Origin: Myxococcales bacterium
GTDB taxonomy: Bacteria; Myxococcota; Myxococcia; Myxococcales; JAJYLH01
Reading direction: 5' to 3'
DNA length: 64,000 nucleotides
Assembly (NCBI GenBank): GCA_021787845.1
Contig: JAJYLH010000001.1
Span: forward strand, 302,736-366,735
Both the position numbers and the translations under genes were made by a program. Every line of letters starts with the position of its first letter. The first letter of the stretch is position 1. Positions 22,641 to 25,751 of this stretch are shown in pieces. Below the pieces are notes generated by a model. The model was not told where the DNA came from. It worked only from the letters and a program-made list of their open reading frames with translations, and ran no database searches.

Positions 22641-22957
22641 CCATTGCCTCCCAAGGGCGCGCAACCGGAAGAAAAGGGACCGGGCCGGCCGACCGCCAGT
22701 GTAGCAGACGACAAGAGCGGTCCCGCGCGCGCCCGAAGCTTGGCGCACGGGCTCGTGCGCCGCGAGCCAGCTCCTCTTGTCGCGGCGGACGACGGCGCCG
22801 CGCCGGACGAGGCTCGGTCGCTCCCACCGAACGACGCCTGCGTAGGAGTACGAGTGCGGTGCCTGTGCCCTGAAGCGGTCACACAATCCGTCACCGCTGC
22901 CGACTGGCATGCGACCAAGAGCCGTGAGGCGACCGCCGTCCTGGCTGGCTCGGTCCC
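22641..22957. other. divergent intergenic region upstream of the redox cluster
   Basis: No gene is supported here; Arg-rich open frames on both strands are probably spurious. The promoter-proximal part continues in the regulatory feature at 22958-23030. Confidence 0.4.
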
Positions 22958-23030
22958 GAGCCCGTCGCCTCCCCGAGCCCGTCGCGTCTTGACAGGCTGG
23001 CTCGCGAGCTTACGTTCGGGAGCCCGTCAC
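22958..23030 (+). promoter_or_regulatory. promoter and putative operator repeats of the redox cluster
   Basis: TTGACA (22989-22994) and TACGTT (23011-23016) with a 16-base spacer make a good sigma-70-like promoter. Three direct copies of GAGCCCGTCRC lie at 22958-22968, 22975-22985 and 23020-23030, flanking both boxes. They are candidate binding sites for the ArsR-type regulator encoded first in the cluster. The sequence pattern is direct; the role is inferred. Confidence 0.5.
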
Positions 23031-23046
23031 ATGCCGCGACGGGAAT

Positions 23047-23346
23047 ATGTCGGACGGAGACGACTCGATGAAGGTCACCAAACGGCAGCGGGCGGCGCGG
23101 GTCGGAGCGGCGCTGGGGCACCCGACGCGGCTGGCGATTCTGGAGCTTCTGGCCGAACACCCGCGCATCGTCGGCGAAATCATCGAGGAGATCGGCGCGC
23201 GGCAGCCCGCGGTCTCCAAGCACCTGTCGACGCTGCGGGCAGCGGGTCTGTTGGCCTGCGAGCCCGACGGTCGCTGTCGCCGGTACCGGCTCGCGGATCC
23301 AAAAGCGGTGCGTCGGGCTCTCAAGGCGTTGGGCACCCTGGGCTAA
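23047..23346 (+). CDS. ArsR-family winged-helix regulator
   Basis: A 99-residue repressor-type protein. ALGHPTRLAILELLAEHP is the ArsR entry helix, RQPAVSKHLSTLRAAGLL the recognition helix, and CEPDGRCRRYRLAD the wing. Two Cys (71 and 77) flank the wing hairpin and could form a disulfide or metal site, an unusual place for ArsR sensors. It lies first in the cluster and is followed at 60 bases by the glutaredoxin fusion, so autoregulation through the upstream repeats is likely (inferred). It is not assigned to a known metal-sensing subgroup. Confidence 0.88.
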   Translation: MSDGDDSMKVTKRQRAARVGAALGHPTRLAILELLAEHPRIVGEIIEEIGARQPAVSKHLSTLRAAGLLACEPDGRCRRYRLADPKAVRRALKALGTLG

Positions 23347-23406
23347 GGCCGCGAAGACGGCCCGAGCCCTCGGCCGCACGGCAAACGGCGCGCAAACGGA
23401 GTGACG

Positions 23407-24006
23407 ATGGCGATGAGAGAGGTGTCGGGGCTGGCGGAGCTTCGCGAGCGCGTGGGCGCCACCGGGTCCGCGTGGATCGGGTTCTTCGGAGCGTTCTCGG
23501 AAAAATCCGAGCGGCAGCTTCCGGTGTTTCGCGCGTTCGGCGAGCGCCACCCGGACAAGCCGCTGTTTCTGGTCGACGTCGGGCGGGTGAAGGACGTCCA
23601 TCGCTTCTACCAGGTCGGCAGCGTGCCCACGGTCATCCGGGTGCGCGGCGACGCGGTGGTCCAAGTGGTCGCCGGGGAGCGCCCGCTCGCCGAGTACGAG
23701 GCGCTCCTCGACGACGCGCCACCGGTGATCAAGACCGCTTCTCCACAGCCGCAGCGCACCCGCCGGGTCGTCGTCTACACGACCCCGACGTGCACCTTCT
23801 GCCGTCAGGTCAAGAGCTACTTCCAGCGGCGGGGAGTGCAGTTCCGCGAGGTCGACATCTCGCGCGACGAAGCCCAAGCCCGCCAGATGATGGCGAAGAG
23901 CGGCCAGTCCGGCGTCCCGCAGGTCGACATCGAAGGAAAGATCGTCGTCGGCTTCGACAAGCCGCAGATCGACCGGCTCCTCGGACTTTCCCGGGAAGCT
24001 GCCTAG
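23407..24006 (+). CDS. thioredoxin-like/glutaredoxin fusion protein
   Basis: A 199-residue protein of two thioredoxin folds. The N-terminal domain (1-105) keeps the fold and cis-Pro (GSVPT, 71-75), but the active-site position reads FFGAFSEKSER with no Cys, so it is redox-inert. The C-terminal domain (120-195) is a glutaredoxin with C129-T-F-C132 (TPTCTFC), cis-Pro in SGVPQVDIEG and GFDKPQI. ATG 23407 is preferred over GTG 23401 because CGGAG is at ideal spacing. It probably carries electrons from the reductase encoded at the end of the cluster, with the inert domain for docking (inferred). Confidence 0.88.
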   Translation: MAMREVSGLAELRERVGATGSAWIGFFGAFSEKSERQLPVFRAFGERHPDKPLFLVDVGRVKDVHRFYQVGSVPTVIRVRGDAVVQVVAGERPLAEYEALLDDAPPVIKTASPQPQRTRRVVVYTTPTCTFCRQVKSYFQRRGVQFREVDISRDEAQARQMMAKSGQSGVPQVDIEGKIVVGFDKPQIDRLLGLSREAA

Positions 24007-24061
24007 AGCATTTCCCCCCCCAACGGCTCGCGGTCTACGGCCGCGGGCGAAGGAGCAACCG

Positions 24062-24346
24062 ATGAACGTGCAGCCGCTCGGTGAGTTCATTCTCGTCCGT
24101 CCCTTGGAAGCGCAGGAGAAGACCTCGGGCGGCATCTACCTGCCCGAGACCGCTCGCGAGACCCCCGCTCAAGGGAAGGTGCTCGCGGTCGCGACCGGCG
24201 TCACCAACGGCGTCGTCGTCGGCGATCGCGTCATCTACAAGCGCTACTCGGGCGAGGAGCTGACCGTCGACGGCGAGAAGCTCCGGCTGGTCGCGATCGC
24301 CGACCTGCTCGCCCGGTACGTGGAAGCCGACGCCATCCAGCCCTGA
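24062..24346 (+). CDS. groES: GroES-like co-chaperonin
   Basis: A 94-residue Hsp10. LGEFILVRPLEAQEKTSGG leads into the mobile loop GGIYLPETARE, and the GKVLAVATG and VGDRVIYKRYSGEE blocks match co-chaperonins. The loop that docks on GroEL keeps a hydrophobic I-Y-L triplet, so binding seems preserved. No groEL follows; instead it is embedded between two thioredoxin-fold genes. It is presumably a second GroES paralogue. The symbol reflects family membership only. Confidence 0.88.
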   Translation: MNVQPLGEFILVRPLEAQEKTSGGIYLPETARETPAQGKVLAVATGVTNGVVVGDRVIYKRYSGEELTVDGEKLRLVAIADLLARYVEADAIQP

Positions 24347-24379
24347 TTCCCCCGAACCGAGACAAGGAGCCTGAAGACG

Positions 24380-24724
24380 ATGCTCGAAACGAACCTGAAG
24401 CACGTGGAGACGGTGCAGGAGTTCGACACCCTCCTGGCCGAGAACGACAAGGTGATGATCTGCTGCGGCCGGATGGGGCCGATGTGCCTGCCGGTCTACG
24501 ACGTGATGGAGAAGCTCGAGCCGAAGTACGCCCAGGTCGCGTTTCGCGACATGGACTTCGACAGCCCGGTCGCGCGGGAGACCATCCGCCGGCTTCCGCA
24601 GGTGCAGAGCTTCGGCGGGCTGCCGTTCACCGTCTACTTTCGCGACGGGAAGCTGATGCAGGCGACGAGCAGCATCCAGACCAAGCAGCAGGTCACCGCG
24701 ATCCTCGACCAGCACCTGGCGTAA
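24380..24724 (+). CDS. atypical thioredoxin (CX6C)
   Basis: A 114-residue thioredoxin-fold protein. The usual WCGPC is replaced by MICCGRMGPMCLPVY, giving Cys28, Cys29 and Cys36, so the redox pair would be C29-X6-C36 or C28-C29. The fold is otherwise complete, with FRDMDFDSP, the cis-Pro in GGLPFTVYF and a C-terminal helix. AGGAGCC precedes ATG 24380. Its position between GroES and the reductase suggests that it is the reductase's partner. It could also bind metal through the Cys trio. Confidence 0.85.
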   Translation: MLETNLKHVETVQEFDTLLAENDKVMICCGRMGPMCLPVYDVMEKLEPKYAQVAFRDMDFDSPVARETIRRLPQVQSFGGLPFTVYFRDGKLMQATSSIQTKQQVTAILDQHLA

Positions 24725-24758
24725 GAACCTTTCGGTCGGCGAGAAGGAGAGGGTCGTC

Positions 24759-25751
24759 ATGCCCACCGAGTCGGACGTCATGGTCATCGGCGGCGGTCCC
24801 GCAGGGCTCACCGCCGGCATCTACCTGGCGAGAGCGCACCTGGAGACCTTGGTGGTGGACAGCGGCGCCGCCGGGGGGCAGATGATCCTCTCCTCCGCCA
24901 TCGCCAACTACCCGGGCGTCCCCCGCATCACCGGGCGCCAGCTCGCGCTCGCGATGCGGAAGCAGGCCGAGTCGTTCGGCTGCCGCGTCGAATCGCAGGC
25001 GGAAATCGAATCGCTTTCGCTCGAGGGTCCGGTGAAGGAGGTGACGCTCGCGGGCGAGGGGGCCTTCACCGCCCGCGCGGTCGTGCTCGCCCCCGGAGGG
25101 CGCCCCCGCAAGCTCGGAATACCCTCCGAGACCGCTTTCGAAGGGCGTGGCATCTCCTATTGCGCGACCTGCGACGGCGAGTTCTTCACCGGCGAGGACA
25201 TCGTGGTCGTCGGCGGAGGCAACTCGGCGCTCGAGGAGGCGGTCGCGCTGACCCGGGTCGCGCGGTCGGTCACCATCGTCCACGAATTCGACCGCTTCCA
25301 GGCGCAGCCGTGGGCGGTGGAGGAGGCCCGGAAGAACCCGCGCATCCGCTTCCTCCTGGCGCAGGACGTCCGTGAGTTTCGCGGCGGCGACCACCTGGAA
25401 GAGGTGGTGCTCGCCTCGAAACGGACGGGCGACGAGACCGTTCTGCGCGCCCGGGGCGCGTTCCTCTTCATCGGCTACCGGCCGAACACCGCGTTCCTCG
25501 ACGGGCTCGCGGCGCTGACCGCGCGCGGCGAAATCGTCACCGACGAGGCGCTGCGCACGAACGTCCCTGGGGTGTTCGCCGCCGGTGACGCCCGGCAGAA
25601 GCGCTACCGCCAAATCACGACCGCGGTCGCCGACGGCACCGTCGCGGCGCTCGGCGCGGTCGAGTACCTCACCGCCCTCGAGCGTCCCGTCTGGCCCACG
25701 TGGCAGGCGTCGAACGTCATCGAGCTGGCGCCGGCGATGGTGGTGCACTAG
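24759..25751 (+). CDS. thioredoxin-reductase-like flavoprotein
   Basis: A 330-residue protein with the TrxB plan. The FAD motif is VIGGGPAGLTAGIYLARA, the redox disulfide C135-A-T-C138-D, the second dinucleotide fold VVVGGGNSALEEA, and the FAD-closing block GVFAAGDARQKRYRQITTAVADG. The NADPH 2'-phosphate motif HRRxxxR is replaced by HEFDRFQ (176-182), so cofactor use is probably not NADPH. AGAAGGAGAGGG precedes ATG 24759. It ends the cluster and probably reduces the thioredoxin and/or glutaredoxin encoded just before. Confidence 0.9.
   Translation: MPTESDVMVIGGGPAGLTAGIYLARAHLETLVVDSGAAGGQMILSSAIANYPGVPRITGRQLALAMRKQAESFGCRVESQAEIESLSLEGPVKEVTLAGEGAFTARAVVLAPGGRPRKLGIPSETAFEGRGISYCATCDGEFFTGEDIVVVGGGNSALEEAVALTRVARSVTIVHEFDRFQAQPWAVEEARKNPRIRFLLAQDVREFRGGDHLEEVVLASKRTGDETVLRARGAFLFIGYRPNTAFLDGLAALTARGEIVTDEALRTNVPGVFAAGDARQKRYRQITTAVADGTVAALGAVEYLTALERPVWPTWQASNVIELAPAMVVH

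Follow-up and report, generated by a model that had tools for sequence, protein, structure and literature searches.

Why should a groES gene with no groEL beside it lie between two genes for thioredoxin-fold proteins, in a run that closes with a thioredoxin reductase-like flavoenzyme? The arrangement occurs in a Myxococcales bacterium (assembly GCA_021787845.1, contig JAJYLH010000001.1, positions 302,736 to 366,735), within the analysed stretch of 64,000 nucleotides that we call the window. Five genes, all on the plus strand, occupy positions 23047-25751 of the window:

23047..23346, plus strand: arsR, regulator of the ArsR/SmtB type (NF033788, 78 bits, cut-off 55)
23407..24006, plus strand: thioredoxin-glutaredoxin (Trx-Grx) fusion, identified from TIGR02196, an AlphaFold2 model and homologues (the open frame from GTG begins at 23401)
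24062..24346, plus strand: orphan groES, Cpn10 (PF00166, 76 bits, cut-off 21.1)
24380..24724, plus strand: trxX, thioredoxin-fold protein with CCGRMGPMC (Cys29/Cys36), from an AlphaFold2 model and a family of 49 loci
24759..25751, plus strand: trxB-like flavoenzyme with a FAD site, a CATC disulfide, GGGNSALEEA and HEFDRFQA

We consider it very probable that these five genes form a redox/co-chaperonin module. The original prediction, made from the DNA letters, had described five genes on one strand with gaps of 33-60 bases, and this was borne out by coordinates and family scans: the intergenic gaps are, in order, 54-60, 55, 33 and 34 bases. Each of the last four genes is preceded by a ribosome-binding site of the GGAG type. 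Equally, groES does lie between two thioredoxin-fold proteins and groEL is absent from the cluster; the three groEL genes of the host genome are all located on other contigs, and one has a canonical groES as its neighbour.

Two gene pairs recur together in two phyla

Comparison across Myxococcota and Bacteroidota resolved the cluster into two conserved sub-modules, one being trxX-trxB and the other a (Trx-)Grx gene ahead of an orphan groES that has no groEL. The two pairs adjoin each other in 11 loci, which come from both phyla and show three gene orders. The order (trx-)grx-groES-trxX-trxB was found in the window and in genomes G329 and G294, trxX-trxB-fusion-groES in G248, and the two pairs stood back to back on opposite strands in G433, G244, G216, G702, G663, G633 and G714. 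Both pairs were also present, unlinked, in G195, G031, G042, G271, G385 and G259. Ignoring shared ancestry, the pairs co-occurred in 9 genomes against 0.9 expected among 297 Bacteroidota (hypergeometric 2.6e-9) and in 3 genomes against 0.15 expected among 195 Myxococcota (1.6e-4). The occurrence of three gene orders in two phyla makes it less likely that a single locus was simply inherited.

A neighbourhood conserved nowhere else would have spoken against the module; the search was run and recovered it in two phyla. That grx-groES and trxX-trxB recur together in both gives strong comparative support to the predicted functional association of these genes. Spread of the cluster on plasmids was rejected, as TrxX had no match in the plasmid collection. 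The comparison covers Myxococcota and Bacteroidota; a genome-contig scan made with one sequence returned 3 loci.

TrxX is the probable partner of an unusual reductase

The 114-aa TrxX stays below every Pfam and NCBIfam cut-off: it scored 14.6 bits against TIGR01068 (cut-off 96.8), had no Pfam match and carries CGRMGPMC in place of CXXC. Its AlphaFold2 model (pLDDT 92) has a thioredoxin fold, with a TM of 0.75-0.79 to solved thioredoxins, and the cis-Pro region of that fold is present as a conserved G[LI]PF. A profile was built from seven homologues, and the family was read at 49 loci in Myxococcota and Bacteroidota, where its signature is [C/I]CGRMGPMC[ILV]PVY and both Cys29 and Cys36 are kept in 48. 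The helix in the model covers residues 34-49, and profile alignments place Cys36 at or next to the resolving-cysteine site of thioredoxin; on either reading, the nucleophile position is without a cysteine. Active site and family scores together rule out that TrxX is an ordinary thioredoxin.

The gene trxB adjoins trxX in 47 of the 49 loci. The only two loci where trxX has no neighbouring trxB are in G035 (L066 6229-6573) and G659 (L226 3086-3514). TrxX of G035 has lost Cys28 and Cys29 and kept Cys36, the loss of Cys29 thereby coinciding with the absence of an adjacent trxB. The case for TrxX as cognate partner of TrxB is best made by a sister TrxB subfamily, in an Anaeromyxobacter-like family, where a normal thioredoxin with ECPPC is encoded directly 5' of trxB, at the place that trxX takes here.

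The TrxB-like protein of the window scored 328.4 bits against TIGR01292, just below the cut-off of 343.45. Here HEFDRFQA replaces HRRxxxRA, with the loss of all three arginines for the NADPH 2'-phosphate, but the pyrophosphate motif GGGNSALEEA is intact. The reductase had been predicted to lack the NADPH motif, which holds for the arginines and not for the pyrophosphate motif. The same pattern was seen in an alignment of trxX-linked TrxB proteins (n = 23): HRRDGFRA of the E. coli enzyme becomes H[EQ]F[DP]xFQ[AG] in all 23, CATC and GGGNSA[LI]EE are kept, and the docking motif reads G[RKLTM]G. Loss of the NADPH arginines alongside a retained pyrophosphate motif makes NADH the likely electron donor, as judged from these motifs. 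The host genome also encodes a second, canonical thioredoxin reductase with the HRR motif. In the TrxB tree the Myxococcota members form one clade (starred) and the Bacteroidota members a second, and a branch with 78/91 support separates these two trxX-linked clades together from the enzymes of the HRR type.

Some loci carry further genes beside the pair. In G060 (L038 7113-8988), a gene for a membrane-anchored thioredoxin (CGAC) lies 3' of trxX-trxB, possibly an extra electron outlet. In Bacteroidota genome G197 (L036 3275-6297), an OsmC-type gene lies directly 5' of trxX and a gene for a Crp-type regulator lies further upstream, on the other strand.

The orphan GroES follows a glutaredoxin and keeps its GroEL-binding loop

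The fusion gene is better started at the ATG at 23407, given the position of the ribosome-binding site and the homologues, which begin with MAM or MAL. Its Grx part passes the cut-off of the YruB-family glutaredoxins (TIGR02196, 90.9 bits, cut-off 88.55) and has the motif CTFC. The Trx domain, predicted to be inert, is cysteine-free with SEKS in place of CXXC; as far as the active site goes this is correct, since a CXXC is missing from this domain in all seven fusions. The AlphaFold2 model (pLDDT 82) contains two Trx-fold domains, the N-terminal one matching thioredoxins, and by Pfam scan and model the partner domain is a glutaredoxin, with no TPR domain. Homologues of the fusion were found in G195, G031, G042, G136 and G167 and, at about 30% identity, in Bacteroidota genome G248. 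In all seven loci, the window included, groES lies directly 3' of the fusion without groEL. The other Bacteroidota have a stand-alone Grx in place of the fusion. In G195 (L063 5030-7974), the fusion-groES pair is flanked 5' by a gene for ArsR-type and rhodanese-like domains and 3' by a gene for a small-heat-shock-like protein, both named by eye.

The orphan GroES of the window has the hydrophobic segment of the mobile loop that binds GroEL (GGIYL), and the stretch from the loop to the GD anchor measures 25 residues, where the host's canonical GroES has 33. The hydrophobic segment was kept in all 12 orphan GroES proteins compared. Their loop-to-anchor stretch, which holds the roof hairpin, was 25-27 residues long in 12/12, compared with 32-33 in the canonical GroES that each of these genomes also encodes, leaving the orphans 6-8 residues shorter in the roof region. 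A profile built from eight orphan GroES proteins was then run on the 297 Bacteroidota genomes and matched 16 of them with scores of at least 145 bits; the match ranked next scored 107. In 15 of these 16 genomes a Grx gene precedes the orphan groES. The exception, G206 (L234 2747-4753), is the sole case in which groES of the orphan type lies directly 5' of groEL, and it suggests that this type can act as a normal co-chaperonin.

The orphans fell into two clades in the GroES tree. A single origin was not rejected (AU p 0.238), and we make no claim of independent recruitment in the two phyla. A metal-binding tail was ruled out, the tail EADAIQP being without Cys or His. Several Bacteroidota have a third, longer GroES-like type of about 115-125 aa with a DEPWK insertion (L143 1286-1735, L144 1737-2183, L098 4040-4417), which twice adjoins a methyltransferase-like gene.

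Which GroEL might such a protein serve? The two further groEL genes of the host genome (C52:74870-76372 and C102:42-1562; L003, L002) had no groES in the flanking sequence examined, and in this sense GroELs that stand alone are present alongside the orphan GroES. Two GroELs share a single GroES in Myxococcus xanthus (PMC5406781), which shows that the genes for a GroES and its GroEL can lie apart.

ArsR is an optional regulator of the module

The ArsR protein of the window has a Cys pair in the wing (ACEPDGRC), shared by three of the four linked ArsR proteins (window, G042 and G031, not G045). The gene lies 5' of trxX in G042 and G031 and 3' of trxB in G045; none was found at the Bacteroidota loci. 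ArsR is an optional regulator of the module, and its predicted role as the thiol sensor draws slight support from the wing cysteines, set against the negative result at the Bacteroidota loci.

The original prediction also placed the cluster under a consensus-like promoter. This was not borne out, as only the following candidate was found:

22989..22994, plus strand: TTGACA hexamer 5' of arsR, a weak promoter candidate with no fitting -10 element

No acceptable -10 hexamer lies 16-18 nt from this TTGACA, and a sigma-70 promoter scan returned 0 sites. About 30 bases 5' of it, at window 22947-22962, is a perfect inverted repeat, GGCTCGG-TC-CCGAGCC, with a third half-site at 22973; it is possibly an ArsR operator, or a product of chance in GC-rich DNA.

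Comparison with known systems

CnoX (YbbN) offers a functional parallel: it is a holdase that contains a Trx domain (SXXC in E. coli) and hands its clients over to GroEL/ES (PMC8129009). What the two would share is a thioredoxin-fold protein, degenerate in its active site, that is tied to GroEL/ES folding under oxidation (PMC8129009); in the cluster this tie is the gene association with groES. CnoX, however, has a TPR domain and neither a GroES nor a reductase gene of its own alongside, whereas the fusion described here has a Cys-free Trx active site, is joined to a glutaredoxin and adjoins an orphan GroES. In Leptospirillum, the peroxide-induced tfp2-groESL cluster combines a thioredoxin-fold gene with chaperonin genes, and its thioredoxin-fold protein is reduced by thioredoxin reductase (PMC11241051). 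That cluster, in contrast, has groEL and a canonical groES and, as reported, no glutaredoxin or reductase gene.

Thioredoxin reductase-like flavoenzymes that have lost NADPH binding are known from Desulfovibrio vulgaris as DvTRi and DvTR3, the latter preferring NADH and having a non-canonical thioredoxin partner (PMC5627308). DvTRi is marked by a TQ/NGK motif and a degenerate GGGxxAxE, and DvTR3 by CxQ in place of GR/KG (PMC5627308). Unlike either, the present TrxB has H[EQ]F[DP]xFQ, keeps GGGNSALEEA intact and shows neither TQ/NGK nor the CxQ change in docking; the motifs do not match, and assignment to DvTRi or DvTR3 was ruled out.

For the short roof, the precedent is gp31 of phage T4, a lid of the GroES type that has no roof loops and partners GroEL as an open-domed co-chaperonin (PMC6318259). 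It differs in its longer mobile loop and its 14% identity to GroES, whereas the orphan GroES is a clear Cpn10 member. The Grx domain, for its part, resembles the YruB family in passing the TIGR02196 cut-off and departs from it in being fused to a cysteine-free Trx in Myxococcota and at one Bacteroidota locus, with stand-alone forms in other Bacteroidota.

A proposed mechanism and its alternatives

How might the parts work together? On whether they act as a redox-coupled co-chaperonin module with a resident GroEL, functionally like CnoX-GroEL and built differently, our judgement is evenly balanced. The TrxB-like flavoenzyme would draw electrons from NADH and hand them on through its CATC disulfide to TrxX (Cys29/Cys36), to the CTFC glutaredoxin or to both. 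The cysteine-free Trx domain of the fusion would bind clients or GroEL and carry out no chemistry, and the orphan GroES, with its intact GroEL-binding loop and short roof, would provide an alternative lid for the resident GroEL. Oxidised or mixed-disulfide proteins could in this way be reduced and refolded together, and thiol or metal stress would lift ArsR repression. Donor, electron order, GroEL binding and client repair are all inferred. The proposal draws on the adjacency of trxX and trxB, the ECPPC thioredoxin of the sister subfamily, the Grx-groES pairing, the joint loci, the co-occurrence and the kept mobile loop; the GroES of the same type beside groEL in G206, the loss of Cys29 without trxB in G035 and the precedents of CnoX and tfp2-groESL point the same way. 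A complete thiol-electron chain, as originally predicted, is plausible but uncertain, TrxX being without the thioredoxin nucleophile. By analogy with CnoX-GroEL, GroEL-assisted folding may be coupled to disulfide control.

Several observations weigh against this proposal. No grx-groES adjoins trxX-trxB in 38 of the 49 loci, some Bacteroidota with trxX have no orphan GroES of the profiled type, and G136 and G167 have the fusion-groES pair but no trxX. The co-occurrence figures leave kinship in. With no cysteine at its nucleophile position, the redox activity of TrxX is uncertain, and a short roof is not unique to the orphans, since some other canonical Bacteroidota GroES proteins have 28 residues in that stretch. 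The mechanism, moreover, is drawn from gene association, motifs and folds.

Part of this evidence could be explained by a stress regulon in which redox genes and a spare GroES are needed together under oxidative, thiol or metal stress and are controlled in common, without their proteins acting on one another. The frequent separation of the two modules (in G195, G031, G042, G271, G385 and G259) and the presence of ArsR in only some loci are in keeping with such grouping. Nevertheless, the tight and repeated Grx-groES pairing suggests more than common timing, and the orphan GroES is consistently unlike the canonical GroES of its own genome; we regard grouping for control as possible but clearly the less probable explanation of the locus.

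More doubtful is a response to metals, metalloids or reactive sulphur, in which ArsR would sense the agent, TrxX, TrxB and Grx would reduce the toxicant or persulfides, and GroES would replace chaperonin function lost to thiol poisoning. The four Myxococcota loci with a linked ArsR, three of them with the wing Cys pair, fit this idea, as do the OsmC-type gene of L036 and the ArsR-rhodanese-like gene of G195, but the loci have no conserved gene for an arsenate reductase, metal pump or sulphide enzyme and the linked genes vary, making it unlikely.

Similarly improbable, in our estimate, is a stronger form of the redox-coupled co-chaperonin, a dedicated redox lid for GroEL. The open-roofed GroES would cap the chaperonin, the (Trx-)Grx would reach the client through or beside the dome, and the NADH-linked TrxB with the Cys29/Cys36 relay would feed electrons, reduction and folding becoming one cycle.

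Finally, a chance neighbourhood of unrelated genes, to which the complete five-gene order with ArsR, met only in the window, might be ascribed, has a negligible probability and is refuted by the recurrence of the four-gene set in 11 loci of two phyla and of each pair in many more.

Significance of the probable redox/co-chaperonin module

In a literature search of open-access papers, neither a Grx-GroES nor a GroES-TrxB cluster was found described. All the parts fall within known superfamilies, and it is their combination that was not found in the papers searched. The locus suggests that two distant phyla have a co-chaperonin which is specialised in folding linked to redox control and brings its own supply of electrons. 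It defines a thioredoxin-fold family (CGRMGPMC) next to thioredoxin reductase and without the classical CXXC, and what the TrxX-linked reductase reduces becomes directly testable. If the proposed mechanism is true, the connection between CnoX and GroEL would extend to the lid itself. A survey counted 435 of 5,253 groES genes as stand-alone, without explanation (PMC5406781), and the module described here suggests a role for some of them.

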